DNA of 58,941 bases from positions 1-58,941 of IMG/VR virus record IMGVR_UViG_3300010354_000100. One strand, written 5' to 3'. The translations under genes were made by a program, and so were the position numbers. Positions within the stretch are counted from its first letter, which is position 1. Each line of letters opens with the position of its first letter. The notes under the pieces are model-generated. The model saw nothing but the letters and a program-made list of their open reading frames with translations, made no database searches and was not told the DNA's origin. This DNA comes from a virus. Positions 12,790 to 32,817 of the stretch are shown here, piece after piece.

Positions 12790-12794
12790 AGAGT

Positions 12795-12849: not shown

Positions 12850-12880
12850 CTCAACAAACTCAACACAGAAAGATAAAACA

Positions 12881-15012: not shown

Positions 15013-15041
15013 TTGCGAAAGCGACAAAGATGTGATACACT
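15013..15041 (+). promoter_or_regulatory. second tandem promoter, drives RNA candidate
   Basis: TTGCGA, 17 bp, TACACT. Confidence 0.8.
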
Positions 15042-15275: not shown

Positions 15276-15297
15276 GTGTATCCGTATGTGATACACT
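15269..15297 (+). promoter_or_regulatory. promoter for 15319 gene
   Basis: TTGCTT, 17 bp, TACACT; the -35 box is the 3' strand of the closing helix of RNA candidate 1. Confidence 0.75.
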
Positions 15298-19997: not shown

Positions 19998-20011
19998 GCG
20001 CAACGGAATAA

Positions 20012-20040
20012 CTGTCGGGCAGGCAACACCTGCCCGACAG
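20012..20040 (+). terminator. hairpin terminator
   Basis: CTGTCGGGCAGG pairs with CCTGCCCGACAG, 5-base loop. Confidence 0.75.
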
Positions 20041-20042
20041 AT

Positions 20043-20072
20043 AACCGTGTAACACCCTCTCGCTACAATGGG
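20043..20072 (+). repeat. 30-base repeat, copy 1
   Basis: AACCGTGTAACACCC, then CTCGCTACAATGGG. Near-identical to 20976-21005; carries a TACAAT that could be a -10. Confidence 0.6.
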
Positions 20073-20106
20073 AGGGGGAGACTTCACGCGCGCGGGCGGG
20101 TGCCAT

Positions 20107-20175
20107 CAAGGAAACGCAGCGCACGGAATAAATCCGATTGTGAAGGAACACCATATTGTCAGGGGGCGGAGGCAG
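20107..20175 (+). repeat. oriented dispersed repeat, copy 9
   Basis: CAAGGAAACGCAGCGC, GAATAAATCCGA, 7 variable bases, GGAACACCATATTGT from 20145, GGCGGAGGCAG. Confidence 0.85.
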
Positions 20176-20218
20176 AATTGTTGCCGGGAGCCGGCGGCCG
20201 CGGAGCGTGACTGCCCGA

Positions 20219-20231
20219 CCACTCAGAGTGG
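20219..20231. repeat. CCAC-type perfect palindrome
   Basis: CCACTCAGAGTGG. Confidence 0.6.
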
Positions 20232-20300
20232 TGAATAACTTGTAACACAAATGAAACAAAAATAATGCCTCAAAAGTGAGGAAATCGTACACCCCTGTGA

Positions 20301-20306
20301 TACAAT
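20301..20306 (+). promoter_or_regulatory. -10 box for 20356 gene
   Basis: TGTGATACAAT without a good -35; GTACACCC lies in the spacer as in two other promoters, so an activator may be needed. Leader hairpin around AATCCC follows. Confidence 0.6.
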
Positions 20307-20355
20307 TGTATTAGTGAGGTAATCCCGCCTCACCGAACACAACGGAGGTAATGAA

Positions 20356-20598
20356 ATGCTCACACTAATCGGCACGGCAGAAATGCCGACACCGCCACAA
20401 AACGACACCGCTTGGCTGCGTGATAACGCCCGCTTCGGTGCCGCTATCGTCACCCGCAACGGAGTACGCACCCGCGAATTCCTGCCCGTGACCTACACCG
20501 ACCCCGATACGGGCAAGCAGGCTCACCCGCTGTTCCCTGCCCGTGAGCGTGGCGGCAAGCGGTACATTGACACCAGCGCCAAGCCCCAACTGGACTAA
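20356..20598 (+). CDS. AWLRDNAR-family small protein A
   Basis: 80 aa, GGAGG upstream. Contains TAWLRDNARFGAAIVTRNGV, shared with the 23297 and 28222 genes, then a PDTGKQAHPLFPAR segment shared with 23297. A phage-specific family, role unknown. Confidence 0.65.
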   Translation: MLTLIGTAEMPTPPQNDTAWLRDNARFGAAIVTRNGVRTREFLPVTYTDPDTGKQAHPLFPARERGGKRYIDTSAKPQLD

Positions 20599-20607
20599 GC
20601 GTCTAAC

Positions 20608-20629
20608 GGGTGGGGCGAAAGCCCCACCC
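20608..20629 (+). terminator. hairpin terminator with GNRA loop
   Basis: GGGTGGGGC-GAAA-GCCCCACCC. Confidence 0.75.
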
Positions 20630-20689
20630 AACAGGGCAGGCGGCAGAGGCAAGCGGGCGACCGGCACGCAAAAAAACTTGCGTACCGAG

Positions 20690-20718
20690 TTGCGAAACTA
20701 AAACAACTGTGATACAAT
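20690..20718 (+). promoter_or_regulatory. promoter for 20740 gene
   Basis: TTGCGA, 17 bp, TACAAT. Confidence 0.85.
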
Positions 20719-20739
20719 AATAGTAGGAGGAATAACCAA

Positions 20740-20985
20740 ATGAAAATCACAAACCTAATCACAAATGAAATGAAAACGGGGCGCACCCTCAAAGCGTCAT
20801 CGTGGCGAGCGGTTCAGGTATCCGACACCCGTCGGGAAATCTGGCACTACTCCACGCTAATGGCGGTGCTCAACGGCAACGAATTCCAGCAGGTTAGCAA
20901 CGGTTGGGGTTCAATGTCGGACAAGCACGGAATGGGCAAACTCCGCAAAGGCGTTACCTTGAAGGGTTACACCGAAACCGTGTAA
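20740..20985 (+). CDS. small hypothetical protein
   Basis: 81 aa, AGGAGG upstream. Basic, with SSWRAVQVSDTRREIWHYS; unassigned. Its last codons overlap the second copy of the 30-base repeat. Confidence 0.6.
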   Translation: MKITNLITNEMKTGRTLKASSWRAVQVSDTRREIWHYSTLMAVLNGNEFQQVSNGWGSMSDKHGMGKLRKGVTLKGYTETV

Positions 20986-21005
20986 CACCCCCTCGCTACA
21001 ATGGG
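20976..21005 (+). repeat. 30-base repeat, copy 2
   Basis: AACCGTGTAACACCC and CTCGCTACAATGGG, as at 20043. Confidence 0.6.
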
Positions 21006-21030
21006 GTTAGGTGGGAAACCACCTAACCCC
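21003..21030 (+). terminator. hairpin terminator
   Basis: GGGGTTAGGTGG pairs with CCACCTAACCCC, loop GAAA. Confidence 0.75.
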
Positions 21031-21074
21031 AGAGGGCGACAGAGGCAGGCGGGCAAAAAATCTTTCTTGGATAG

Positions 21075-21103
21075 TTGCAAAACTGCCGAGACTGTGATAC
21101 ACT
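21075..21103 (+). promoter_or_regulatory. promoter for 21143 gene
   Basis: TTGCAA, 17 bp, TACACT. Confidence 0.85.
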
Positions 21104-21142
21104 AATAACATAAGGCAATACCAAACCAACAAGGAGAAAAAA

Positions 21143-21340
21143 ATGAACCACTACATACACGCACACGACGTAAAGGCGGAGGACGTAATAGTTACCGTCA
21201 ATGGCAATCCCTACGACAGCGCATCGCTGACCGTTGAGATTACCGACACGAACCGCAATACGACCAGCATCCACTTCTACACGAACGAATTGCTGGAAGT
21301 CCTGCGAAAGTTCGCCCAAGAAGCCGTAGCCGTACGCTAA
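21143..21340 (+). CDS. small hypothetical protein
   Basis: 65 aa, AAGGAG upstream. Two or three strands then an amphipathic helix (NELLEVLRKFAQEAVAV). Unassigned. Confidence 0.6.
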   Translation: MNHYIHAHDVKAEDVIVTVNGNPYDSASLTVEITDTNRNTTSIHFYTNELLEVLRKFAQEAVAVR

Positions 21341-21346
21341 CGGCTG

Positions 21347-21382
21347 GGCTGGCGGTGGGACGAGAAGCGCCCACCGCCAGCC
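21347..21382 (+). terminator. hairpin terminator
   Basis: GGCTGGCGGTGGG pairs with CCCACCGCCAGCC, 10-base loop. Confidence 0.75.
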
Positions 21383-21426
21383 ACCGGGCGACAGAGGCAG
21401 GCGGGCAAGAATTCCCCCCGCACGAG

Positions 21427-21455
21427 TTGCAAAACTATCAGGAGTGTGATACACT
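21427..21455 (+). promoter_or_regulatory. promoter for leaderless 21462 gene
   Basis: TTGCAA, 17 bp, TACACT, six bases to the ATG. Confidence 0.8.
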
Positions 21456-21461
21456 AGAACT

Positions 21462-21602
21462 ATGAGGAAACAACAGCACAACAACAAGCGCCGAGCGTGG
21501 AACGCAACAGACCGACAAGCATACGCCGACGGGCTGCGCACACGAGCGGTGACTATCCACCACAAGCGCAAGCCTGCGCCGACAGTCCGAGAATGGGACT
21601 GA
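21462..21602 (+). CDS. 46-aa basic protein, leaderless
   Basis: Sequence begins MRKQQHNNKRRAWNATDRQ and is rich in Arg, Lys and His, suggesting nucleic-acid contact. No ribosome site; ATG at +1 of the promoter. Confidence 0.55.
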   Translation: MRKQQHNNKRRAWNATDRQAYADGLRTRAVTIHHKRKPAPTVREWD

Positions 21603-21635
21603 ACAGCGGGCCGGCAAAAATAATCCTCTCAGGAG

Positions 21636-21664
21636 TTGCGAAACTCTCAGGAGTGTGATACACT
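21636..21664 (+). promoter_or_regulatory. promoter for 21709 gene
   Basis: TTGCGA, 17 bp, TACACT; leader hairpin GTGGGGC-AAAA-GCCTCAC. Confidence 0.85.
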
Positions 21665-21708
21665 AATAGTAGTGGGGCAAAAGCCTCACCTAACCAAAGG
21701 AGAAAAAA

Positions 21709-21867
21709 ATGAAAGAACATAACTGGACATTCGTAGACGAGGACAGCATCCGCTGCTCAGACTGCGACTGCCGTTTTGGTGGACGCTGGCACGACCTGCC
21801 CTGCGGTTCGTCGGAGGAGGAGTACATCGCCTTCGCCAACGCTCGCCAGAGCGAATACCTCAAATAA
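21709..21867 (+). CDS. small cysteine-rich protein
   Basis: 52 aa, AAGGAG upstream. C-SDCDC and PC give four Cys in 17 residues with a nearby His, a probable zinc finger. Acidic C-terminal helix. Confidence 0.6.
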   Translation: MKEHNWTFVDEDSIRCSDCDCRFGGRWHDLPCGSSEEEYIAFANARQSEYLK

Positions 21868-21875
21868 GCCGAGAC

Positions 21876-21909
21876 GCCCCGCGGGTTCCACCTCCTTCCC
21901 CCGCGGGGC
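21876..21909 (+). terminator. terminator with anti-Shine-Dalgarno loop
   Basis: GCCCCGCGGG pairs perfectly with CCCGCGGGGC; loop TTCCACCTCCTTCC contains CACCTCCTT. Confidence 0.8.
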
Positions 21910-21932
21910 AATTCGGGGCCGCCGGGCGGGGC

Positions 21933-22014
21933 CCAAGGAACGCTCAGCGCGAAATAAATCCGAACATTCTGGAACACCATATTTTCGGAAGCGGGCGGAG
22001 GCAGATTGTGAAAG
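21933..22014 (+). repeat. oriented dispersed repeat, copy 10
   Basis: CAAGGAACGCTCAGCGC, GAAATAAATCCGA, 7 variable bases, GGAACACCATATTTT from 21971; CCGAA can pair with TTCGG. Confidence 0.85.
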
Positions 22015-22015
22015 T

Positions 22016-22039
22016 TCGCACTTTCACAAGACCGAGGAA
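22016..22039 (+). terminator. perfect hairpin
   Basis: TTGTGAAAGT-TCGC-ACTTTCACAA directly after repeat copy 10. Confidence 0.6.
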
Positions 22040-22045
22040 GGCCGA

Positions 22046-22079
22046 CCACTCTCCGTGACTAGCCGACCACTCTCCGTGA
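22046..22079. repeat. tandem CCAC-type palindromes
   Basis: CCACTCTCCGTGA at 22046 and 22067, 21 bp apart, identical. Confidence 0.6.
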
Positions 22080-22136
22080 AGTGTAACAATTGTGTGACAT
22101 CTGCCGAAATCGGGAGTAAATGGTACACCCATAGTG

Positions 22137-22142
22137 TACACT
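22137..22142 (+). promoter_or_regulatory. -10 box for 22191 gene
   Basis: TACACT with GTACACCC in the spacer and no good -35; leader hairpin GTGGGG-AAAAC-GCCCCAC follows. Confidence 0.55.
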
Positions 22143-22190
22143 GTTATTAGTGGGGAAAACGCCCCACCTAACCAAATGGAGGTAAGCAGA

Positions 22191-22523
22191 ATGAAAATCA
22201 CACTAGAACATCTCACTTCGGGCGTAGCCCGAAAAGTGGAGTACTGGTACGGCGAATGCGACCCAGCCGAAATTGAGGATGGCGTACTTGACGTAACCTA
22301 CGGCACTTTGGAAGTTACCTTTACTTCGGGACGCTCTTATGAGTACGCCGAAGTCACGGTAGGAACCTTTGCCGAACTAATCAAGGCAGTGAGTTTCGGC
22401 AAGTTTCTCAATCAGGAAATCAAGCCGTACCACGAGGTTCGTGAGACCACCCCAGCCGAATTGCTCGCCGAAATCAAGGCAAAGCAGGCTGAGGCAAAGG
22501 CTCTCAAAGCCTCGCTCGCCTAG
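22191..22523 (+). CDS. KTSC-like hypothetical protein
   Basis: 110 aa, GGAGG upstream. GTLEVTFTSGRSYEYAEV and a helix ending SFGKFLNQEIKP parallel the KTSC-like gene at 19293. A Lys/Ala/Glu coiled helix forms the C terminus (LLAEIKAKQAEAKALKASLA). Confidence 0.55.
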   Translation: MKITLEHLTSGVARKVEYWYGECDPAEIEDGVLDVTYGTLEVTFTSGRSYEYAEVTVGTFAELIKAVSFGKFLNQEIKPYHEVRETTPAELLAEIKAKQAEAKALKASLA

Positions 22524-22531
22524 TCGGGTCG

Positions 22532-22559
22532 GGTCGGTGGGGCGAAAGCCTCACCGACC
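22532..22559 (+). terminator. hairpin terminator with GNRA loop
   Basis: GGTCGGTGGGGC-GAAA-GCCTCACCGACC. Confidence 0.75.
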
Positions 22560-22590
22560 ACCACCGGGCAGGGGCAGTTTGTGCGTTCTG

Positions 22591-22735
22591 GTATGTCTGT
22601 CTAACAGCCCACTAGACGCAATAGGAAGCGATTAGAGAGGCTCTACAAAAAAGATAAGACTAGGGCAGAATAACTACCTTGTCTCACAGCCTGAGCAATC
22701 TGGAAGCGTCTGGCAAGGGGCGAACATACGTTCGG
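22591..22735 (+). ncRNA. twin non-coding element A
   Basis: About 145 bases closely related to element B at 23614. Begins GTATGTCTGTCTAACA like the spacer of other promoters, contains the shared core AGACTAGGGCAGAATAA and TGTCTCACA, and ends in the hairpin CGAAC-ATAC-GTTCG. Stop codons in every frame; AGACGC can pair with GCGTCT over the full length. Confidence 0.6.
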
Positions 22736-22791
22736 TCGGCGGGCGAAGAGCACCGGGCAGCGGGCTTGTGAAAAGTTTCTTTTGTTTGGAG

Positions 22792-22820
22792 TTGCGAAAC
22801 TGTCGCAAGTGTGATACACT
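22792..22820 (+). promoter_or_regulatory. promoter for 22871 gene
   Basis: TTGCGA, 17 bp, TACACT; leader hairpin GTGGGGC-AATC-GCCTCAC. Confidence 0.85.
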
Positions 22821-22870
22821 TTTATTAGTGGGGCAATCGCCTCACATAACACAACAAGGAGAAAAAAGTA

Positions 22871-23119
22871 ATGCGACACAAAGGAATGGTGGCAAGTGCC
22901 GAAGTGGTACTTAGCCCGACAATTGAGTACGGAGTCCGTACTGAGTGGGCAATAGCCCTCCACTTTCAGAGCCCGACTGGTGACAGTTCGGACTTTATGG
23001 TGCGAGAGTTGCCCTGCCTCTCACGAGAGCAGGCAGTCATTATTGCCGACAAGTGGAATAGCGAAGTATGCCCCGAACTGGTGGGCAGGTTCGCAGTATC
23101 CGACCTGTTGCCGAACTAA
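22871..23119 (+). CDS. hypothetical protein
   Basis: 82 aa, AAGGAG upstream. Two-strand plus helix pattern (TEWAIALHFQSP; SREQAVIIADKWNSE). Unassigned. Confidence 0.6.
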   Translation: MRHKGMVASAEVVLSPTIEYGVRTEWAIALHFQSPTGDSSDFMVRELPCLSREQAVIIADKWNSEVCPELVGRFAVSDLLPN

Positions 23120-23130
23120 CCAACCCAAAA

Positions 23131-23152
23131 GGGTGGGGCGAAAGCCCCACCC
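23131..23152 (+). terminator. hairpin terminator with GNRA loop
   Basis: GGGTGGGGC-GAAA-GCCCCACCC. Confidence 0.75.
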
Positions 23153-23221
23153 GACAGGGGGCGGCAGAGGCAGCGGGCGAATTCTGTAACACAAAAGTAA
23201 CAAAAAAAAGTGTGTTTCGGG

Positions 23222-23250
23222 TTGACAACCGTACACCCTTGTGATACACT
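23222..23250 (+). promoter_or_regulatory. promoter for 23297 gene
   Basis: TTGACA, 17 bp with GTACACCC, TACACT; leader hairpin AGTGGGG-AAAA-CCCCACT. Confidence 0.9.
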
Positions 23251-23296
23251 GTAATTAGTGGGGAAAACCCCACTACAACACAAAGGAGAAAACCAA

Positions 23297-23536
23297 ATGA
23301 ACGGAATAGTCGGAACAAGGGTGGCAATGCCAGCCAACCCAACAGCGTGGCTGAGGGACAACGCTCGCAAGGGCGCAATGCTCTACACCCGAGACGGCGT
23401 GACCGTGGCACTGGTGAACACCCAGACCACCTACGGAGACCCAGACAAGGGCACCCAGCAGCACCCCCTCTACGCCCCCCAGGGCGAGGGCAAGCGGGTC
23501 TACTCGGCTCGCCCAGTAATGCCAATGCTTGACTAA
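23297..23536 (+). CDS. AWLRDNAR-family small protein B
   Basis: 79 aa, AAGGAG upstream. TAWLRDNARKGAMLYTRDGV and a later PDKGTQQHPLYAP block match the 20356 gene closely. Role unknown. Confidence 0.65.
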   Translation: MNGIVGTRVAMPANPTAWLRDNARKGAMLYTRDGVTVALVNTQTTYGDPDKGTQQHPLYAPQGEGKRVYSARPVMPMLD

Positions 23537-23547
23537 GAACCCCCGAA

Positions 23548-23571
23548 GGGGAAGGGCGAAAGCCCTTCCCC
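23548..23571 (+). terminator. hairpin terminator
   Basis: GGGGAAGGGC pairs with GCCCTTCCCC, loop GAAA. Confidence 0.75.
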
Positions 23572-23613
23572 GAACGGCGGGCAGAGGCAGCCCCCGGGCG
23601 AGCGGGCGTTTCT

Positions 23614-23757
23614 GTATGTCTGTCTAACACCCGATTAGAAGCGTCAGGAAGCCCCAGGACGCGAGCAGAAAAAAAGTGGAGACTAGGGCAGAATAAATAG
23701 TCTGTCTCACAACCTGACGCACTAGGGCACGTCTGGCAGAGGGCGAACGTATGTTCG
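23614..23757 (+). ncRNA. twin non-coding element B
   Basis: Same order of conserved blocks as element A: TGTCTGTCTAACA, AGACTAGGGCAGAATAA, TGTCTCACA, CGTCTGGCA, and the end hairpin GCGAAC-GTAT-GTTCGC. GCGTCAGG pairs with CCTGACGC and AGACTA with TAGTCT. No ORF. Confidence 0.6.
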
Positions 23758-23807
23758 CTCGGAGGGCGAGGAAGGCAGCGGGCCGGCAAAAAAAGTTTCT
23801 CTCGGAG

Positions 23808-23836
23808 TTGACAAACCGCTTAGGCTGTGATACACT
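23808..23836 (+). promoter_or_regulatory. promoter of RNA candidate 2
   Basis: TTGACA, 17 bp, TACACT, a full-strength match with no coding sequence for about 390 bases downstream. Confidence 0.85.
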
Positions 23837-23842
23837 AATAAC

Positions 23843-24150
23843 ATAAGCAACAACGGCGAAAGCGGGTAGTCCGCTAGTAACCAGACAACTAGCAGCCCCC
23901 ACTCTCTGGGCAACAATCCCCGTGAGAAGATAAGTGGCGACCCAAGCGGTCGGGCAAACGGGTGCGACGTTGGCGGTAGGTGAAAGCCCTACGACATACA
24001 ACCCCGAAAGGGGTGAAACGCGCCAAGGCTTCGGCGTGCGAGACGCACGTTACGGCTACGAAGCAAGAGGGCACGGTGAGGCTTTACCTGACGGGCAACA
24101 ATCCCCTAGTAGGCAAAGATAGCCACCCGCAGCGGGTGAGAACCCCGCAA
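23843..24150 (+). ncRNA. candidate structured non-coding RNA 2
   Basis: About 300 nt, no plausible ORF. Helices seen: GCTAGT/ACTAGC (23873/23888), CCACT/AGTGG (23899/23933), TTGGCG/CGCCAA (23970/24021) enclosing GTAGG/CCTAC and ACCCC-GAAA-GGGGT, GCTTCG/CGAAGC (24028/24059) enclosing CGTGCG-AGA-CGCACG, and CACCCG-CAG-CGGGTG (24124). GGGCAACAATCCCC occurs twice (23908, 24093). Does not match tmRNA, RNase P or group I intron cores that I can recall. Confidence 0.65.
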
Positions 24151-24168
24151 AAATAATTCTCTCAGGAG

Positions 24169-24197
24169 TTGACAAACTCCCGAGGGTGTGATACACT
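24169..24197 (+). promoter_or_regulatory. promoter for 24235 gene
   Basis: TTGACA, 17 bp, TACACT. Confidence 0.9.
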
Positions 24198-24234
24198 GGA
24201 ATTATCAGGCAATAACCAACCCAAGGAGGAAACA

Positions 24235-24489
24235 ATGGACACAATGGATTATCTCTCGGCAGAGCAGGTCAACGGAATAGACCCATTCTGCGAATGGTGC
24301 GGGCGGGTCACCTGCCACATTGGGGAGCACGAGCACGAACTGGCGCTAGGGCTTGTCACCTACGAGGAGAACAGTTACGTCAAGGTAACCGCCCTCGGGT
24401 ATGCGGTCAAGGCGAACGAGGAGGTTTCTCGCAAACTCTCGGATGCGCTCTACGGGCTCTACCTCATCGAGGGAGAGGTTGCTCAATGA
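24235..24489 (+). CDS. small protein with Cys motif
   Basis: 84 aa, AAGGAGG upstream. CEWCGRVTCHIGEHEHE near the N terminus looks like a zinc knuckle; the rest is acidic and helical. Stop overlaps the next ATG. Confidence 0.6.
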   Translation: MDTMDYLSAEQVNGIDPFCEWCGRVTCHIGEHEHELALGLVTYEENSYVKVTALGYAVKANEEVSRKLSDALYGLYLIEGEVAQ

Positions 24490-24617
24490 GACTCCAACTA
24501 TTGCTCACCTGCCCCGAATGCGGGCAGACGCTCACGAGGGAGGAGATGGCTTACGGTCACGACTGCGAAGTCCCAGCCGAAGGACAGTGGAGCCCCGAGG
24601 AGGACGATAACGCCTAG
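24486..24617 (+). CDS. 43-aa zinc-ribbon-like protein
   Basis: ATGA overlap with the preceding gene. MRLQLLLTCPECGQTLTREE with a later HDC gives a CxxC-HxC zinc site. Confidence 0.55.
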   Translation: MRLQLLLTCPECGQTLTREEMAYGHDCEVPAEGQWSPEEDDNA

Positions 24618-24719
24618 CCCCCGGGCAGCGTTGCCGAAGGGCGGCAGAGGCAGAGGAGAGAGGCGGCGGGCGAGCGGGGCGGTCTCTCCCCGACTTTTCC
24701 TCCCTGCCCCTCTACTTCC

Positions 24720-24748
24720 ATTGTAGCACAACCCGACGCAAAAAGCAA
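24720..24748 (-). promoter_or_regulatory. minus-strand promoter, no clear gene
   Basis: On minus: TTGCTT, 17 bp, TACAAT. The flanking 75 bases resemble those at 15673-15757. Confidence 0.65.
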
Positions 24749-24783
24749 CCTCTAAAAATAAATTTTTTTTCTTCCCGTAAGAG

Positions 24784-24812
24784 TTGACAGTACGCCCCAC
24801 ACTTGGTACAAT
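24784..24812 (+). promoter_or_regulatory. promoter for 24859 gene
   Basis: TTGACA, 17 bp, TACAAT; leader hairpin TGTAAGGC-AATCCC-GCCTTACA. Confidence 0.9.
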
Positions 24813-24858
24813 GTAGTTGTAAGGCAATCCCGCCTTACAAACAGAAAGAGGTAACTCA

Positions 24859-25101
24859 ATGAGTCAAGTCCAAGAAGGTGAGATGGTGAACGTGTTCCAG
24901 TTCCGCTTTCTCATCCACTGCTACATCACAGAGATTCTCTCAGGTCTCCGTGTGTGTCAAATCCCACTGAGCCGAGTCGCCCCACGATTCGGTGTCACCA
25001 CCAAGAACAAGAAGAAGGCACTCACCCAACTCCTCGCCAACTACGAGGCAACAATGGGCGAGCCTTACGAAGACGACCGCCTAGTGCGAATCTTCGGCTA
25101 G
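24859..25101 (+). CDS. hypothetical protein
   Basis: 80 aa. RFLIHCYITEILSGLRVCQIP then RFGVTTKNKKKALTQLLANYEA, helical with a basic turn; could be DNA-binding. Not recognised. Confidence 0.6.
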   Translation: MSQVQEGEMVNVFQFRFLIHCYITEILSGLRVCQIPLSRVAPRFGVTTKNKKKALTQLLANYEATMGEPYEDDRLVRIFG

Positions 25102-25108
25102 CGAGTCC

Positions 25109-25135
25109 GCTCGGGCAGGCAACCCCTGCCCGAGC
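25109..25135 (+). terminator. hairpin terminator, possibly bidirectional
   Basis: GCTCGGGCAGG pairs with CCTGCCCGAGC, 5-base loop. Confidence 0.7.
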
Positions 25136-25165
25136 ACTTTCGCACGAGGGCGGCAGAGGCAGGCG

Positions 25166-25183
25166 GGCGAACGTATGTTCGCC
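25166..25183. repeat. GCGAAC-N4-GTTCGC hairpin
   Basis: GGCGAAC-GTAT-GTTCGCC; same element ends twin RNA B and recurs at 26444. Confidence 0.6.
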
Positions 25184-25303
25184 CCCGGGCGATGAGAGCG
25201 GCGGGCTGCGGCGGTGGCGGGCCGAGGAGAAGAGAGGCGGCGGGCAAGAAGGGCGGCGGGCCAGAGCCGAGGAGGGAGACGGTCTCTCCCCTCCCCCACT
25301 ATC

Positions 25304-25332
25304 AGTGTATCACATCTAAGCGAATTTGTCAA
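25304..25332 (-). promoter_or_regulatory. minus-strand promoter, no clear gene
   Basis: On minus: TTGACA, 17 bp, TACACT, pointing into the GC-rich repeat block. Confidence 0.7.
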
Positions 25333-25366
25333 CCTCAAAAGATTTATTTTTTTTTGGCGTTTTAGG

Positions 25367-25395
25367 TTGACAAATGTCTGACAATACCCTATACT
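25367..25395 (+). promoter_or_regulatory. promoter for 25442 peptide
   Basis: TTGACA, 17 bp, TATACT; leader hairpin of the GTGGGG class follows. Confidence 0.9.
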
Positions 25396-25441
25396 GGAAT
25401 TAGTGGGGAAAACCTCACCTAACACAATAAAGGAGAACAAA

Positions 25442-25516
25442 ATGACTAACGAAGAGTTCCTCGCAAAGGTTGCCGAGATTGTAGAAGAGATTCTCGCAAT
25501 CGTTGACGAAGAGTAA
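25442..25516 (+). CDS. 24-aa acidic peptide
   Basis: MTNEEFLAKVAEIVEEILA and DEE end, an acidic amphipathic helix. It has its own strong promoter, a 5' hairpin and AAGGAG before the ATG, so it is likely translated despite its size. Confidence 0.55.
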   Translation: MTNEEFLAKVAEIVEEILAIVDEE

Positions 25517-25530
25517 ATAAAAAATAGGGG

Positions 25531-25552
25531 TTCGGGTTGACAAAAGCCCGAA
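25531..25552 (+). terminator. short hairpin overlapping next promoter
   Basis: TTCGGG pairs with CCCGAA; the next -35 box lies in the loop, so terminator and promoter overlap. Confidence 0.55.
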
Positions 25553-25565
25553 CCTCTGTTATACT
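25537..25565 (+). promoter_or_regulatory. promoter for 25602 gene
   Basis: TTGACA, 17 bp, TATACT. Confidence 0.9.
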
Positions 25566-25601
25566 TAGATTAGTAGGGAATACCAACCAAAGGAGAACAA
25601 A

Positions 25602-25748
25602 ATGGAAAACGAAGACCTAGACAGAATTATCTGGAATGAGTACGAGGCAGGCTGGTACGGAGTGCCAGTAGGCAAGTACACCTACCGACAAATGCTCGCC
25701 AAGTGGAGAGCCGAAAACGAAGAAATCCGAAAGGCGAAAGCCAACTAG
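25602..25748 (+). CDS. 48-aa hypothetical protein
   Basis: AAGGAG upstream. WNEYEAGWYGVPVGKYTYRQ then a charged helix; unassigned. Confidence 0.6.
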   Translation: MENEDLDRIIWNEYEAGWYGVPVGKYTYRQMLAKWRAENEEIRKAKAN

Positions 25749-25764
25749 GACCGAGAGTCCCGAA

Positions 25765-25784
25765 GGGGGAGGGCGACCTCCCCC
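25765..25784 (+). terminator. hairpin terminator
   Basis: GGGGGAGG pairs with CCTCCCCC, 4-base loop. Confidence 0.65.
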
Positions 25785-25840
25785 GAGAGGGGCGACAGGG
25801 GCAGCCCCGGGCGGCGGACAAGAAATATTTGCCCGAGAGG

Positions 25841-25869
25841 TTGACAAATCAAAAGTAATGTGATACACT
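25841..25869 (+). promoter_or_regulatory. promoter for 25910 gene
   Basis: TTGACA, 17 bp, TACACT. Confidence 0.9.
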
Positions 25870-25909
25870 GGTTTTAGTAGGGAATACCAACAACAAAAGG
25901 AGAAACACA

Positions 25910-26119
25910 ATGGATAAGAACAAGCAACTACAAAACCTCGCCGAGGAGTTCTTCGGTGAGTGGGCAATCGTCGCCAGCGACATTCCTGCTGTCGTGAAGA
26001 CTTTCGCCCGATACCTTCGCAGTGAGAAGGGCTTCACGCTCAACATCACCGACGAGGCGTGGGAGCGCTACACGGCGGGCTGGTTCGCCAAGCGGCTCTC
26101 GCCAGCGGGCCGCCGCTAA
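25910..26119 (+). CDS. small helical protein
   Basis: 69 aa, AAGGAG upstream. Mostly alpha (LQNLAEEFFGEWAIVASDIP; VVKTFARYLRSEKG) with a basic end. Unassigned. Confidence 0.6.
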   Translation: MDKNKQLQNLAEEFFGEWAIVASDIPAVVKTFARYLRSEKGFTLNITDEAWERYTAGWFAKRLSPAGRR

Positions 26120-26157
26120 ACCCCAAGGGGAGAGGCGAGAAATATTTGCCCACGGAG

Positions 26158-26186
26158 TTGACAAACCGAGGGTGGTGTGATACACT
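26158..26186 (+). promoter_or_regulatory. promoter for 26226 gene
   Basis: TTGACA, 17 bp, TACACT. Confidence 0.9.
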
Positions 26187-26225
26187 GGAATTATCAGGTA
26201 ATAACCAACACAAAGGAGAAACATA

Positions 26226-26423
26226 ATGAAGGAATACACACTGGTAGCAGAACTCACCGACGCAGAGGGTGGCGAGTGGACGGCGGACGCCGGAATCCTC
26301 GCAGCCGATGATGCGTCGGCAGTTCGTCAGGCTCGCATTTGGGCAAAGGACGAGGCGACGGCACAGGGTGCCAAACTCGTCGAGTTCTACGCTCAGGATG
26401 CCCAGGGCGTGGCGCACCGCTAA
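26226..26423 (+). CDS. small hypothetical protein
   Basis: 65 aa, AAGGAG upstream. Strand-helix-strand (YTLVAELTDAEGGEW; DDASAVRQARIWAKDEA; AKLVEFYAQD) like small phage proteins with a ferredoxin-like half-fold. Confidence 0.6.
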   Translation: MKEYTLVAELTDAEGGEWTADAGILAADDASAVRQARIWAKDEATAQGAKLVEFYAQDAQGVAHR

Positions 26424-26443
26424 ACCCCCAAGGGGAGAGGCGA

Positions 26444-26459
26444 GCGAACACTTGTTCGC
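26444..26459. repeat. GCGAAC-N4-GTTCGC hairpin
   Basis: GCGAAC-ACTT-GTTCGC after the 26226 gene. Confidence 0.6.
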
Positions 26460-26528
26460 CCTCCCCTGAGGGAGGCGGCAGAGGCAGAAATAGGAGGGCG
26501 AGCGCAAAAAATGTTCGCCCGAGAATGC

Positions 26529-26557
26529 TTGACAAATGTCAGAGAGTGTGATACACT
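26529..26557 (+). promoter_or_regulatory. promoter for 26584 gene
   Basis: TTGACA, 17 bp, TACACT. Confidence 0.9.
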
Positions 26558-26583
26558 GGTATTAGTAGGGAAAGGAGACCCGA

Positions 26584-26712
26584 ATGACACCAAGAGACCA
26601 GAACAGAATCACGAGGGACGAGCACGAGGTCGTACCGATTTACGACTGGGCGCTTGACCCCGAAATGAACGAGGACTTCGCCCAGTGGGCTGAGGAACTC
26701 GCCGAGGGCTGA
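26584..26712 (+). CDS. 42-aa acidic protein
   Basis: AAGGAG upstream. RDEHEVVPIYDWALDPEMNE and an acidic C terminus; no family. Confidence 0.55.
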   Translation: MTPRDQNRITRDEHEVVPIYDWALDPEMNEDFAQWAEELAEG

Positions 26713-26818
26713 GAGGTCCGAGGAGAAGGGCGACAAAAGAAAATAGTCCTACCAAGGGGGACGGCCTTGCCTGACGGCGGGCCTCCCCCGAGGAGGAGAA
26801 GGATTCCGGAGGGAGAGG

Positions 26819-26847
26819 TTGTCTTTCCCCGAGGGAAGTTGTATAAT
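26819..26847 (+). promoter_or_regulatory. promoter for 26872 peptide
   Basis: TTGTCT, 17 bp, TATAAT. Confidence 0.8.
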
Positions 26848-26871
26848 AAAAGTAACAAGAAAGGGAAAGTA

Positions 26872-26937
26872 ATGCATTGGGCGTTCGGATTCGCACTCGT
26901 TGCGCTAACCATTCGGTTAGTCGGAAAGAGTCAATAA
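26872..26937 (+). CDS. 21-aa membrane peptide
   Basis: MHWAFGFALVALTIRLVGKSQ is one short hydrophobic span with a basic end. AAGGGAAAG precedes the ATG and the promoter is near-consensus. Confidence 0.45.
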   Translation: MHWAFGFALVALTIRLVGKSQ

Positions 26938-26943
26938 CAAAGG

Positions 26944-26972
26944 TTGCAAAAACTCAAGACATCTGTTATACT
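26944..26972 (+). promoter_or_regulatory. promoter for 27008 peptide
   Basis: TTGCAA, 17 bp, TATACT. Confidence 0.85.
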
Positions 26973-27007
26973 AATAACAGGGCAGAGAGAAAGGAAAAGG
27001 TAAACAC

Positions 27008-27103
27008 ATGGTTATCGAAATTTATGACTGGATGTGTGCCGTGCCGGTGGCAGTTGCTGCCGTCGTCATCGCCGTCATCTTCAAAGCCAAGAAAATGAAG
27101 TAA
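27008..27103 (+). CDS. 31-aa membrane peptide
   Basis: A hydrophobic span VPVAVAAVVIAVIF followed by KAKKMK, a single-pass membrane peptide with cytoplasmic basic tail. GAAAGGAAAAGG upstream. Confidence 0.55.
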   Translation: MVIEIYDWMCAVPVAVAAVVIAVIFKAKKMK

Positions 27104-27288
27104 TCCAAGGGCGCAGCCCTGCGGGCGAGTGTGTTCGCCTGCGGGGCTCGCCTACGGGCGAGGCTTGTGAAAATCTGCACGAACCACGGGCGGCGGGCAA
27201 GAGCGGAGGAGAAGGGCGACCATCTCACGATTTTGGTCAAAACCCGAGGATGCGGCGGGCGAAGAGAGAAAAAAATGTGCCGCGGGAG

Positions 27289-27317
27289 TTGCGCGCGGGC
27301 TGAATCTGTGATACACT
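27289..27317 (+). promoter_or_regulatory. promoter for 27361 gene
   Basis: TTGCGC, 17 bp, TACACT; leader hairpin GTGGGG-AAAA-CCCCAC. Confidence 0.8.
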
Positions 27318-27360
27318 GGGATTAGTGGGGAAAACCCCACCAAACACAAAGGAGAAGACA

Positions 27361-27579
27361 ATGAAAACCATCAACGAGCAAGCACAAGAAATGCGAGAGT
27401 TACTGAGCCACTTGGTCTCCCGGATAGACGAAGCGGTGAACCAAGCCAACGAGGAAAGCGACAAGGAGTACGCAGACAATCAACTCGCAGATGAGTTGAG
27501 CAGCGTGGCCTTCCGGTGCGACCACCTCGCCTACGACTACAAGTACGGCCAAGACATCCTCCGAGCCTCCGAGCGGTAA
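27361..27579 (+). CDS. small helical protein
   Basis: 72 aa, AAGGAG upstream. Nearly all alpha-helical and acidic (EQAQEMRELLSHLVSRIDEA; NQLADELSSVAFRC). Unassigned. Confidence 0.6.
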   Translation: MKTINEQAQEMRELLSHLVSRIDEAVNQANEESDKEYADNQLADELSSVAFRCDHLAYDYKYGQDILRASER

Positions 27580-27582
27580 AGA

Positions 27583-27623
27583 CTTCGGCGGTCGCACAAA
27601 AAGTCAAGTGCGACCGCCGGAAG
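27583..27623 (+). terminator. long hairpin terminator
   Basis: CTTCGGCGGTCGCAC pairs with GTGCGACCGCCG-GAAG with one bulged G. Confidence 0.75.
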
Positions 27624-27735
27624 TTTCTTCCGGAAAGCCCCAGGACGGTAAGGTCTGCGGGCGAGGTATGCGGGCGATACAGCGGGCAAGCGACACCGGC
27701 TGCGAAGGGCAGTGGCAGAGGAGAAGGAAGGGCGA

Positions 27736-27768
27736 CCACGGAGAGTGATTGCCGGCCACGGAGAGTGA
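27736..27768. repeat. tandem CCAC-type palindromes
   Basis: CCACGGAGAGTGA at 27736 and 27756, identical and 20 bp apart. Confidence 0.6.
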
Positions 27769-27878
27769 GCAATTTATCTCGCGTTTTTGGAAAAAAACCG
27801 AGGATGGCGGGCAAGGCCAAGGGCAAGGGCGGTAACGCGACCGGGGCGGCGGGCCGCCCGGGTGCCGACGCCCGGGAG

Positions 27879-27945
27879 CCAAGGAAACGCTACGCGCAGA
27901 ATAAATCCGAATATCTTGGAACACCATATTTTGGGCCGGGGAGGA
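27879..27945 (+). repeat. oriented dispersed repeat, copy 11
   Basis: CCAAGGAAACGCTACGCGC, GAATAAATCCGA, 7 variable bases, GGAACACCATATTTT from 27918. Confidence 0.85.
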
Positions 27946-27986
27946 AGGGGCTCGCGCGCGTGTTAGGCGAGCCTGACACGGTTTGA

Positions 27987-28008
27987 CCACTCTCCGCGGT
28001 TATCCACA
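27987..28008. promoter_or_regulatory. CCAC site abutting a DnaA box
   Basis: CCACTCTCCGCGG ends at 27999 and TTATCCACA starts at 28000. Confidence 0.6.
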
Positions 28009-28170
28009 GGCTCGGCGATTGTGTGACAATCCGACGAAACTACCTTGTGCGCTCGTGAATGGTGACGCGCTCGCCGTCCCTCTCTCGCGCCCTCCCTCCC
28101 TCCCTCGCCGTGTGTCAAATGTCATACAACTGTAACGCGCACAATGCGACGGAATGTCTAACAGTGTGCC

Positions 28171-28176
28171 TATACT
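28171..28176 (+). promoter_or_regulatory. -10 box upstream of 28222 gene
   Basis: TATACT preceded by TGTCTAACA; the -35 is poor. An in-frame ATG at 28183 lies at the leaderless position. Confidence 0.55.
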
Positions 28177-28221
28177 GTCTGTATGGCAACAACGCCACAA
28201 CACAACAAGGAGAGCAACACA

Positions 28222-28494
28222 ATGAGCACATACACAGAACACACGCCGTCCAGCGTGTGGCCTCAACCCGTCAATGTCACGGCGTACTTGCGCGACAACG
28301 CGCGACACGGCGCGACACTCGTCACGCGTAACGGCGTGAGCGTCGTTGAGACAGGACACAAGGTGAACCGCTACAACGCGCAACCGCCGAAGCGTCTCGC
28401 CTACCGCGCCACCAATCGCGGCGTTATCGGAAGCACCGCAACGCTCGGACACTCTCAGAGTGACCTGCTTCGCGGAGACATCTCCGAAGCGTGA
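28222..28494 (+). CDS. AWLRDNAR-family small protein C
   Basis: 90 aa, AAGGAG upstream; a leaderless start at 28183 would add 13 residues. TAYLRDNARHGATLVTRNGV places it with the 20356 and 23297 genes, but its C-terminal half is different and its codons are far richer in CG. Confidence 0.65.
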   Translation: MSTYTEHTPSSVWPQPVNVTAYLRDNARHGATLVTRNGVSVVETGHKVNRYNAQPPKRLAYRATNRGVIGSTATLGHSQSDLLRGDISEA

Positions 28495-28499
28495 GACAC

Positions 28500-28530
28500 G
28501 GCACGGCGCGCGCCCTCCGCGCGCCGTGCC
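28500..28530 (+). terminator. strong hairpin terminator
   Basis: GGCACGGCGCGC pairs perfectly with GCGCGCCGTGCC, 7-base loop. Confidence 0.75.
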
Positions 28531-28610
28531 ACTCTCAGAGTGTGCGACACGCGCGCACATTCTGAGAGTGGCACTAACGCCACTCTCAACACAACAAGGA
28601 GAAACACACA

Positions 28611-29045
28611 ATGAACACATACACGCCACGACACACGGCGCGCCCGTCGCGCTCGCGTGTCATTCGCGCCCGCGTTAGCGGGTTCGTAGACAGACACGAT
28701 GACGCGCTCACGCTCGCCGTCGTTGCGACAATCGTCGTGCTAGTCAGCGCGCTTACGGCGGTCGCACTCGCGCAAGATTACTCAGTGAGCACACGCGACG
28801 CGCTCGCGGTTGCGGTTCTCACGGTTGCGCTAGGCACACTGTCTGGCGCATTCTCGTACCTCGTCGGCAGTGAGCGCGCATCGCGTCGCGTATCGCGTCG
28901 CTACTCGCGCTATCTCAACGAGCAGAGCGACAAGTACCGCGACGAGTTAGAGCGCGTCACGCGTGAGCGCGACGACGCACGACGCGAGAACTCGCGCACC
29001 GCGTACGCGCTACTCTCCGCGCTAGAACAGAGCGACACGCACTAA
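28611..29045 (+). CDS. two-span membrane protein with coiled coil
   Basis: 144 aa, AAGGAG upstream after a leader hairpin GAGAGTGGC/GCCACTCTC. Basic N terminus, hydrophobic spans at about residues 34-54 and 63-82, then an Arg/Glu coiled coil (RYLNEQSDKYRDELERVTRE). The topology fits a holin or inner-membrane spanin-like protein but that is only a guess. Confidence 0.6.
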   Translation: MNTYTPRHTARPSRSRVIRARVSGFVDRHDDALTLAVVATIVVLVSALTAVALAQDYSVSTRDALAVAVLTVALGTLSGAFSYLVGSERASRRVSRRYSRYLNEQSDKYRDELERVTRERDDARRENSRTAYALLSALEQSDTH

Positions 29046-29067
29046 GTACCGCGCAAGGTATACGCGC

Positions 29068-29101
29068 ACGGCGCGCACACTCTCGCGAGTGTGCGCGCCG
29101 T
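29068..29101 (+). terminator. 15-bp hairpin terminator
   Basis: ACGGCGCGCACACTC pairs perfectly with GAGTGTGCGCGCCGT, loop TCGC. Confidence 0.8.
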
Positions 29102-29115
29102 TGTCGTGTGTACGG

Positions 29116-29151
<36 letters not shown>

Positions 29152-29376
29152 GCGACGCGCTCACGCTTAGGCGGTCGCACACGCTCGCGCTCGCGCTCGC
29201 CGTCGCACACTTACGAGCCAGAGCCACACGGCGCGACACACGCCACGCGCCACACGCGTTGAGAGCCTCTCAGAGCGTCGCAACGCGCCTACCCTTACCC
29301 GACATAGCCTCCCCTATTCTGAGCGCGTCCTAGCGCGTCCTATTGCGTCCCCGCACAAGCGCACAAGCGGGGACAG

Positions 29377-29385
29377 TTATCCACA
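29377..29385. promoter_or_regulatory. DnaA box
   Basis: TTATCCACA, followed by GGC and TGTGGAAAT, a degenerate inverted second box. Confidence 0.6.
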
Positions 29386-29568
29386 GGCTGTGGAAATCCG
29401 ACGAAATAGGAGAAATAGGAGAAATACCCCCCCCCTCTCGACCACGCTGCGCGTTCGCCCCCGCGCCGGGGCAAGCCAAACTCCAGTGTGGAACCTACTT
29501 GACCTGTATAGACGTACTAGACCAACTGTTATGCAGATAGGATTCCCGAAAGGGTTGATGAAGAATCG

Positions 29569-30384
29569 ATGAGCCAATATCCGTTGCGCGTGCTGTCTTT
29601 AGGCGCAGGCGTGCAGTCAACGACACTGCTGCTCATGATGCTGCACGACGAGATACCCAGAGCCGACCACGCTGTTTTTGCTGATACTGGATGGGAATCC
29701 CAAAAGACCTACCGGCACCTTGAATATCTGGAAGGACTGATGGAGAAGGCAAAAATGCCGTTCCATAGGGTCACCAACGGCAATATCCGTGAAGACTTTT
29801 TACGTGACGACAAACGATATGTGTCAATGCCTTTGTATGTGATTGGGGAAGATGGTAAGCGTGGAATGGTGCGTCGCCAATGTACCCGTGAGTACAAACT
29901 GGACCCGCTTCGCGTAAAGCAAAGGGAACTGGCTGGCTTGAAGTATCGCCAGCGCTGCAAAGAGCATCGAATCACGACGGTCATCGGCATCTCTTGGGAT
30001 GAGGTTCAGCGCGTAAGAGACCCGCAGTTTCCATGGATGCAGCATGAGTATCCATTGATTGACAGACGCATGACACGACAGGACTGCCTGGACTGGTGCA
30101 AAGAAAAAGGATACGAACTTCCGCCAAGGTCGGCATGCATCGGATGTCCGTTCAAGAATGAAAGTGAATGGAAGGATTTGAAAGAGTCACCACAAGAATG
30201 GGCCGATGCTGTGGACTTTGACCATTCCATCCGCTCCCTACCGCACGTACGGGAAAGATTCACCTCTGCCCCGTTCCTTCACAGACAAAGAGTTCCTCTA
30301 GAGAACGTTGATTTGCGTATGGACCAAGACAAAGGAATCGAGACATTGTTCAATCAAGAGTGCGAAGGAATGTGCGGGACATAG
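29569..30384 (+). CDS. PP-loop ATP pyrophosphatase, PAPS-reductase/DndC-like
   Basis: 271 aa. SLGAGVQSTT (residues 10-19) is the PP-loop that binds ATP, followed by FADTGWESQKTYRHLEYL as in PAPS reductase-like adenine nucleotide hydrolases. RSACIGCPFKNESEW adds a CxxC near the C terminus. Phage members are often linked to sulfur chemistry or DNA/RNA modification, but no partner gene is seen here. Weak ribosome site (GAAGAA). Confidence 0.75.
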   Translation: MSQYPLRVLSLGAGVQSTTLLLMMLHDEIPRADHAVFADTGWESQKTYRHLEYLEGLMEKAKMPFHRVTNGNIREDFLRDDKRYVSMPLYVIGEDGKRGMVRRQCTREYKLDPLRVKQRELAGLKYRQRCKEHRITTVIGISWDEVQRVRDPQFPWMQHEYPLIDRRMTRQDCLDWCKEKGYELPPRSACIGCPFKNESEWKDLKESPQEWADAVDFDHSIRSLPHVRERFTSAPFLHRQRVPLENVDLRMDQDKGIETLFNQECEGMCGT

Positions 30385-30569
30385 CCCAAAAAATCCAGTC
30401 CACCGGTATAGGTATTCTACCCTGCGATGTGATATACTGGTGTCAAGCATTGGGGTTGACCTCGGCGTTTCTTTCTGTTGGCGCCAGTTCATCCTCCTTA
30501 ACACCGCTGGCAGACCGGCGTCCGATGTGTAAGTCTGCCTTACAAATTCACGAACACAAAAGGACACGT

Positions 30570-30653
30570 ATGAACCTCCACATACCCGCTGCGTTTATTG
30601 CGATTGCTGCCTTCTGGTTCGCCGTATTGTGGTGGTTGGGTAATTCCGAATAG
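30570..30653 (+). CDS. 27-aa membrane peptide
   Basis: MNLHIPAAFIAIAAFWFAVLWWLGNSE: one hydrophobic, Trp/Phe-rich span. AAAGGA precedes the ATG. A TGTGATATACT promoter-like box lies about 130 bases upstream. Ends directly before the tRNA. Confidence 0.5.
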   Translation: MNLHIPAAFIAIAAFWFAVLWWLGNSE

Positions 30654-30725
30654 GCCCAGTTAGCACAGTGGTAGTGCATCCGCCTTGTAAGCGGAAGGTC
30701 CTCAGTTCAATCCTGAGACTGGGCT
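30654..30725 (+). tRNA. tRNA-Thr(TGT)
   Basis: 72-nt cloverleaf: acceptor GCCCAGT/ACTGGGC, D stem GCAC/GTGC, anticodon stem TCCGC/GCGGA with loop CTTGTAA (anticodon TGT), T stem CTCAG/CTGAG with TTCAATC. No encoded CCA. It would read ACA codons. Confidence 0.92.
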
Positions 30726-30747
30726 CTGTGTGGCGGATTCGTCCACC

Positions 30748-30762
30748 GTCACGAAATTCGTG
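30748..30762. promoter_or_regulatory. palindrome after tRNA
   Basis: TCACGAAATTCGTGA, a perfect inverted repeat in the gap after the tRNA; operator or weak terminator. Confidence 0.45.
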
Positions 30763-30812
30763 ATATGAGAGGAAACTGATACGAATTCCCCTCACCCCAG
30801 CGATACAAATAG

Positions 30813-30841
30813 TTGACACTGGCGGCAACTGTCCGTATCGT
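30813..30841 (+). promoter_or_regulatory. promoter for 30881 gene
   Basis: TTGACA, 17 bp, TATCGT. Confidence 0.6.
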
Positions 30842-30880
30842 AAAAGTGTTAGCGATAGTGGTACATAAGGGAAGAACAAC

Positions 30881-31039
30881 ATGGCCAAAAAGAAGAAGAA
30901 AGAACCGATGGAACCGCTGCGCAGATGGATGGATGACCGGATGAATCGCGGCGACATTTCCTACGTCCACCGAGTGAACGGCATCGAGGTGTACCGGGCT
31001 TTGCGCAATCCGTATCCAGAAGAACAAGACACCGAGTGA
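30881..31039 (+). CDS. 52-aa basic hypothetical protein
   Basis: Begins MAKKKKKEPMEPLRRWMDDR; ends acidic. AAGGGAAG upstream. Its stop overlaps the next GTG. Confidence 0.55.
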   Translation: MAKKKKKEPMEPLRRWMDDRMNRGDISYVHRVNGIEVYRALRNPYPEEQDTE

Positions 31040-31167
31040 TAGCCGACCATCACAACGTCGTTGACACAACGATGTGGGATGTCTTTGGCATCTTTCTTGT
31101 GATTGTGTGTGTGGGTATAGGCATGATGGTGAAAAACCTGCTTGATGACAAGGAAAACGGGTACTGA
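31036..31167 (+). CDS. 43-aa single-span membrane protein
   Basis: GTG overlapping the previous stop (GTGA). A hydrophobic span FGIFLVIVCVGIGMMV then a charged tail. ATG 31072 is an alternative start. Confidence 0.5.
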   Translation: MIADHHNVVDTTMWDVFGIFLVIVCVGIGMMVKNLLDDKENGY

Positions 31168-31202
31168 CTTGACTATCCGGCTCGGGCCAATAGTTTCCGG
31201 TC

Positions 31203-31400
31203 ATGAATTCATTTACACAGAAGGAAGTAAAGAGCCTCTTACATAGAGTGGAAGCCGTCGAGGACGATTGCCGTGAATGGCAGGATGTCGCGAGCAAACT
31301 GTACAGAGCCCTGGTGGTGGAAAAGAATCATCGGGGTATCCGCTGGCAGGACGCCGAGATGGTTGCAGAAGCGCTAGAGTCATACGAGAAGATTGCGTAG
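31203..31400 (+). CDS. small hypothetical protein, paralog of 31409 gene
   Basis: 65 aa. W-x-x-V...LYRAL...RGI...AEALESYEKIA repeats the pattern of the next gene. Helical; unassigned. Confidence 0.6.
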   Translation: MNSFTQKEVKSLLHRVEAVEDDCREWQDVASKLYRALVVEKNHRGIRWQDAEMVAEALESYEKIA

Positions 31401-31408
31401 GTAACACA

Positions 31409-32006: not shown

Positions 32007-32047
32007 ACGAGTGTGCGATACTGTAACAGAGTGTGATAACTTGACGG

Positions 32048-32816: not shown

Positions 32817-32817
32817 C

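Follow-up and report, generated by a model that had tools for sequence, protein, structure and literature searches.

A candidate small-RNA cassette with a duplicated hairpin unit in the early region of an uncultured tailed phage

Results

Genomic context

The window, i.e., the whole stretch of DNA that was analysed, is an IMG/VR record of 58,941 bases from a tailed phage found in an environmental DNA sample. It carries structural genes for terminase (34084), portal (46754) and the major head protein (54903). Since its terminase and its head protein share 40-47% identity with Gordonia and Brevibacterium phage proteins, which are among the best matches listed, the host is likely an actinobacterium; archaeal psiM phages likewise stand among the best terminase matches listed, within the same identity range. 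For bases 20000 to 40000 of the window, the phage collection contains no close match. The relatives used for comparison (G001 to G043) comprise 41 IMG/VR loci with a related terminase and two records reached via a small early protein.

From about 15 to 29 kb, the window shows a succession of small genes, many of them with their own promoter. These early-region promoters have the form TTG-N3-N12-TGTGATACACT, and a script found about 38 of this class in the window, counting both strands. By a crude test, 7/38 are not followed by an SD-led ORF, and four of these lie on the plus strand: the one at 17290 is a false case (gene at 17376), those at 14941 and 15012 belong to a second RNA treated below, and the fourth, at 23808, leads into the stretch studied here.

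Further features of the region were recorded. Minus-strand promoters of the same class start near 25332, 24748 and 15713 and would yield antisense transcripts over the preceding genes; similar ones are also present in relatives. An intergenic element, AATAAATCC-RA-N-GGAACACCAT, occurs in nine plus-strand copies in the window (6492, 10699, 13473, 15566, 17868, 19028, 20126, 21952 and 27899) as well as in the relatives G001 and G003 (6 copies each), G042 and G043 (5 each), G009 (4) and G004 (2), with 0 copies in G008, G014, G016, G021 and G023. The second copy of a 103-nt intergenic repeat (22647-22749 vs. 23670-23772, 77% identity) lies just upstream of the promoter at 23808, and relatives of the repeat are found before the RNA in G042 and at the equivalent place in G003 and G043. 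Three paralogous small proteins (20356-20598, 23297-23536 and 28222-28494) have a TAWLRDNAR-type motif in common, which is repeated in relatives too; the one paralogue tested has no family match in Pfam or PHROGs. Finally, G008 shows a promoter-led stretch without an SD-led ORF (L078 14730-14930) with an outer pairing CACCTG/CAGGTG, which by eye is unrelated to either window RNA.

Promoter and gene-free stretch

The promoter of the RNA unit lies on the plus strand at 23808..23836 and reads TTGACA-N17-TACACT with TG before the second hexamer. The first-pass annotation had called it near-consensus, which the sequence bears out, but the window has about 38 promoters of this class. That is, the promoter is real but ordinary, a general mark of gene starts.

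A gene-free stretch behind this promoter, also reported from the initial reading, is present: 398 nt separate the promoter end from the start codon at 24235, and no credible gene lies between them. No plus-strand ATG-started ORF of at least 20 aa is found inside the RNA stretch. The RNA unit is closed by the promoter of the next gene at 24169..24197 (+). This gene (24235..24489, +) has its own SD and encodes an 84-aa protein; it belongs to the flank and lies outside the RNA. The protein has no Pfam match, its best PHROGs match has an E-value of 0.053, and no relatives of it were found. Taking the first promoter and the last hairpin as guides, the RNA would span 23843..24148 (+), i.e., about 306 nt.

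Unit architecture

In the relative G042, the unit stands alone in about 130 nt. Read against this single unit, the window stretch resolves into two copies (copy 1 with core and hairpin at 23899-23992, copy 2 at 24080-24148), so that by comparison the RNA appears to be a tandem duplication of a ~130-160 nt unit, not a single ornate 300-nt molecule. In plan, each unit has a GC hairpin whose 8-nt loop is CAACAAUC and a stem with an AGAUA bulge, followed by a 5-bp hairpin with a 7-nt UGARARC loop.

All elements lie on the plus strand. A 5' hairpin GCUAGU/ACUAGC (23873..23893) is seen in the fold of a 318-nt stretch, and its sequence is unconserved in relatives. The copy 1 core (23899..23937) consists of an outer stem CCAC/GUGG, an AGAUAA bulge, a stem UCUC/GAGA and, within it, the hairpin UGGG-CAACAAUC-CCCG; this core was compared with the units of G042, G004 and G023. 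The 3' hairpin of copy 1 is GUAGG-UGAAAGC-CCUAC (23976..23992, 5 bp with a 7-nt loop). Two hairpins lie between the copies, namely ACCCC-GAAA-GGGGU (24001..24014), found in the sequence and in the 318-nt fold, and CGUGCG-AGA-CGCACG (24035..24049). The former, with its CCCC-GAAA-GGGG core, is a GNRA-type loop of the kind noticed at first reading. The copy 2 core (24080..24124) shows an outer stem GGCU/AGCC, an AGAU bulge, the stems UU/AA and CCUG/UAGG and, within it, the hairpin GGG-CAACAAUC-CCC. Copy 2 closes with the 3' hairpin GCGGG-UGAGAAC-CCCGC (24132..24148), presumably the 3' end of the RNA.

The motif reported as used twice, GGGCAACAATCCCC, is present exactly at 23908 and 24093. Allowing for up to two mismatches, there are 3 matches vs. 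0.59 expected, and 3 matches were reached by 2/100 shuffles. The 7-nt loop of the 3' hairpin could form a T-loop, which we treat as no more than a possibility because the gene-end hairpins of these phages, e.g., GGTGGGGCGAAAGCCCCACC, resemble the 3' hairpin of the unit.

Relatives and covariation

The known members amount to five units in four records. No copy is seen in most relatives, G003 and G043 among them, and the record of G001 (95% terminase identity) breaks at the unit's place. In G042 (L206 6993-7124), a promoter is followed by one gene-less unit of ~130 nt and then by the next promoter; the unit consists, in order, of CTAGG-CAACAATC-CCTAG, AGATAGCC and GGGG-TGAAAGC-CCCC, and it contains GGCAACAATCC. 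The G004 unit (L076 4396-4540), also behind a promoter, shows TCGGG-CGATAAAC-CCCGA, a GATGA bulge and GTGGG-TGAAAGC-CCCAC. Behind a further promoter, G023 (L082, ~12780-12900) shows GTGCGGG-CAACAAAC-CCCGCAC and a GATTA bulge with a different 3' hairpin that is not UGARARC; we take this unit as a diverged version, less surely than the one in G004. Both the G004 and the G023 unit have ATATGCCTACG on the 5' side.

Within the hairpin alignment of the five units, 9 of the 22 columns are invariant. Five of the seven hairpin pairs are changed on both sides and two never vary, a result that 8/500 shuffles match. With regard to the other statistics, the covariation score was reached by 29/500 shuffles and the percentage of paired positions by 38/500. 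With only five rows, we regard the hairpin covariation as support, not proof. The comparison suggests that unit architecture and loop are kept while the stem pairs change.

We also searched about 1.5 Mb of the relatives' DNA for GGC[AG]A[CT]AA[AT]CC and obtained 13 distinct sites. Five of them have the hairpin stem, and all five lie inside promoter-led gene-less stretches. The UGARARC hairpin is also present at 4/13 sites, i.e., the two window copies, G042 and G004. Both hairpins together occur at none of 164 distinct sites (67 + 97) from unrelated IMG/VR loci chosen for the motif and at 0/4 genome loci (0/224 sites before duplicate removal, genome loci included). The descriptor was built from copies 1 and 2 and G042, and G004 was first noticed via its 3' hairpin. 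With three of the four positives used to build the descriptor, 4/13 vs. 0/164 is not an independent test, and its Fisher value of 1.8e-5 is descriptive only.

Folding energy

The whole 318-nt fold has an energy of -114.1 kcal/mol (z -2.41), which 0/100 shuffles equalled. Folding windows of 240 nt starting from 23841 to 24081 give z values of -0.9, -1.7, -2.6, -2.0 and -1.1, and the early-region background has a mean z of -2.83 (235 windows of 240 nt). Since the early region is hairpin-rich overall, the thermodynamic structure of the stretch is unremarkable, and energy alone would not single out the RNA region. The 'at least seven helices' that the first-pass annotation had put forward are not supported as an argument by these values. 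Furthermore, the single copies fold no better than shuffles (z 0.19 for copy 1, -0.68 for copy 2), and in the minimum-energy fold of the G042 unit UCACCCC pairs with GGGGUGA such that the proposed 3' hairpin is broken.

Database searches

An Rfam scan of the whole window at gathering score returned a tRNA as its sole match. At an E-value threshold of 10, the range 23700-24260 gave only noise (12.8-13.1 bits, E 2.1-2.5), i.e., nothing credible. A tmRNA was rejected, as ARAGORN finds only a tRNA-Thr at 30654-30726 and there is no Rfam tmRNA match; 6S RNA, RNase P RNA and a group I intron were rejected for want of any match to an Rfam model. This agrees with the earlier judgement by eye on these four classes. 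Likewise rejected were a group II intron (12.8 bits vs. a cut-off of 49, one D1-D4 model), a DUF3800-XI RNA (13.1 bits vs. a cut-off of 37.8) and GOLLD or ROOL (neither Rfam model matches the window at gathering score or the range 23700-24260 at E 10). Rfam searches with the G042, G023 and G004 units yielded noise only.

The RNA body has no DNA similarity match in 50,697 phage records, and local blastn and nhmmer runs with it gave short noise only. A 481-base query against the 41 terminase-related records matched in 10, chiefly in promoter stretches. The exact double-motif pattern is found in 0 stretches of IMG/VR. The 14-mer by itself occurs in at least 119 stretches there, and none of the 80 loci listed has a second copy within 500 bases. 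When the patterns were tightened, one retrieved only G042 and another only G023 and G004; a looser one gave 95 stretches, none of which besides G042 shows both hairpins. The genome collection holds four stretches with the motif, 0/4 with stems. Among open-licence papers, we found none that describes a comparable RNA in phages of this sort.

A second RNA in the early region

Another gene-less stretch of about 214 nt (15065-15278, +), led by a promoter at 15013-15041, presumably encodes a second RNA. G001 has it with 93% identity over 337 nt. An alignment of seven records gives a 19-pair closing helix and a hairpin with a GACG loop; 97.0% of the alignment cells are paired and 11/24 pairs are changed on both sides. 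None of 500 shuffles scored as high on paired cells, double changes or covariation, and 5/500 did on further pair types. RNAalifold predicts 49 pairs, 22 of them with double changes. The derived covariance model matches 9/44 records at E <1e-10, namely the seven training records, G043 (the sister of G042) and G021, whose match is independent of the training set (31.0 bits, E 5.7e-11). G039 was rejected as a member (7.5 bits, E 0.069) and taken as noise. The model has no match to the 23843-24148 stretch, and Rfam shows nothing above cut-offs at the second RNA. Judged by these alignments, the second RNA, apparently undescribed, is better supported than the RNA at 23843-24148. It is conserved across several relatives and could readily be put forward as an Rfam family.

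Gain, loss and exchange

Over 84,190 aligned bases, G042 and G043 share 99.84% identity. At the unit's place, G042 has 215 nt (promoter and RNA) vs. 35 nt in G043: promoter and RNA are missing as one piece, the next promoter is retained, and the gene after that promoter differs. This is PeSL-like, i.e., a discrete promoter-led unit is present in one and absent from the other of two close relatives. The gene downstream of the unit also differs between the window and G042, and a near-identical promoter in G003 drives a gene for a ~73-aa protein instead. Based on the G042/G043 difference and the G003 protein gene, RNA and protein genes appear to be exchanged behind like promoters, and the RNA unit would be a small-RNA cassette subject to gain and loss.

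Discussion

An undescribed phage RNA, as the first-pass annotation had suggested, is the best reading of the stretch: the absence of an Rfam match and of coding potential, the own and the following promoter, and the relatives all point to it. The part of that suggestion that did not hold is the single molecule of ~300 nt.

Where a loop stays fixed while its stem changes, it is usually one that a protein or a partner RNA reads. We therefore propose, leaving the partner open, a trans-acting, early, promoter-driven non-coding RNA cassette with a duplicated unit whose loop and bulge bind a partner; we think it about equally probable that this account is right or wrong. The cassette would belong to the early region, where the genes of this tailed phage are shuffled; the phage probably infects an actinobacterium. 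Each unit would present the 8-nt loop C-R-A-Y-A-A-W-C on a GC hairpin, over a stem with a GAUNA-type bulge, together with a short end hairpin. The RNA would act in trans early in infection, with loop and bulge binding either an RNA that contains UUGUUG or a host protein. The two copies would then be two binding sites, like a sponge or decoy, and G042 would have one. Transcription, RNA ends, trans action, partner and early timing are what we infer here.

The loop variants, i.e., A to G at position 2 and C to U at position 4, would keep the UUGUUG pairing through G-U pairs. They would fit an RNA partner, but they also fit common transitions. UUGUUG is not enriched on the plus strand of the window (10 sites; 42 on the minus strand) and therefore suggests no target.

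The strongest competitor is recombination debris: a promoter and a decaying, functionless spacer left by cassette exchange, with the motif as a remnant of a repeated intergenic element. Genes are indeed swapped at promoters in this region, several repeated intergenic elements are present, and the folds of the single copies, no better than shuffles, would be expected from it. However, loop and bulge are kept among relatives while the hairpin stem changes in pairs, and the five stem-bearing motif sites all lie in promoter-led gene-less stretches. We consider debris unlikely, though a serious contender.

A cis-acting leader or attenuator, in which transcripts started at 23808 continue to the gene at 24235 while the structure controls how much of it is read, would suit the common strand and the 86 nt between last hairpin and start codon. 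It is rather improbable given that this gene has its own promoter (24169-24197), that in G042 another promoter and an unrelated small gene come after the RNA, and that G043 keeps the promoter without the RNA; the gene after the unit, too, is not the same in the window and G042.

Phage location and repeated identical loops would also suit a GOLLD/ROOL-like structural or assembly RNA that forms homo-oligomers via these loops, but Rfam gives no match, CAACAAUC is not self-complementary, and the RNA is far below the size of GOLLD, whose members are often longer than 800 nt according to a passage of PMC12286853, so that we rate this as very improbable. That the stretch is a short protein-coding gene starting at a non-standard codon has next to no probability: GTG-started ORFs of 62 and 58 aa do lie there, at 23934-24122 and 23980-24156, but their starts are ~100-140 nt from the promoter, neither Pfam nor PHROGs gave a match up to E 0.1 for the four ORFs tested from the stretch, and the G042 and G004 units contain no like ORF, i.e., the coding potential named in the first-pass annotation as counter-evidence is not seen.

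Returning to the trans-acting RNA, the comparison makes it plausible that the unit represents a small family of phage RNAs that changes fast and offers a natural presence/absence pair. Improbable, by our own estimate, is the bolder version of a new class of phage sponge RNAs, in which the fixed CAACAAUC-type loop would titrate, early in infection, either an RNA-binding protein of the host or an RNA from host or defence, with tandem duplication for capacity and with gain and loss as a promoter cassette between near-identical phages. The usual reading of early regions in environmental phages is a series of small proteins of unknown function; the present data suggest that RNA genes, too, are among the units exchanged there. 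With the unit in G042 but not in G043, in sequence that is otherwise 99.8% identical, this natural pair makes the effect of such an RNA directly testable.

Among known systems, the antitoxin RNAs of type III toxin-antitoxin systems consist of tandem repeats, and tandem RNA units are the likeness to our candidate. Here, in contrast, the units measure ~130-160 nt, there are two copies only, and the promoter unit has no toxin gene.

With GOLLD and ROOL, the candidate has in common that it is phage-borne, non-coding, structured and of unknown function. These RNAs are, as far as the cited passages of PMC12286853 describe them, far larger and often near tRNA islands, whereas the candidate has ~130-300 nt, a single tRNA (30654-30726) in its window and no Rfam match; the size difference noted at first reading is thereby upheld.

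Small regulatory RNAs of phages include SprY, a sponge of RNAIII (review PMC12197685). The likeness would be that of a small trans-acting phage RNA, with the sponge as the mechanism proposed here; the candidate differs in that it comes from a phage of an uncultured clade.

Similar in arrangement are the PeSL promoter/stem-loop cassettes described for T4-like phages (Arbiol 2010, Comeau 2014, both as cited in PMC4503421). As far as that secondary account goes, small early genes framed by hairpin and promoter are swapped among close relatives in both cases, while the phage group is another one, and one of the cassettes exchanged here would be an RNA gene, not a protein gene.
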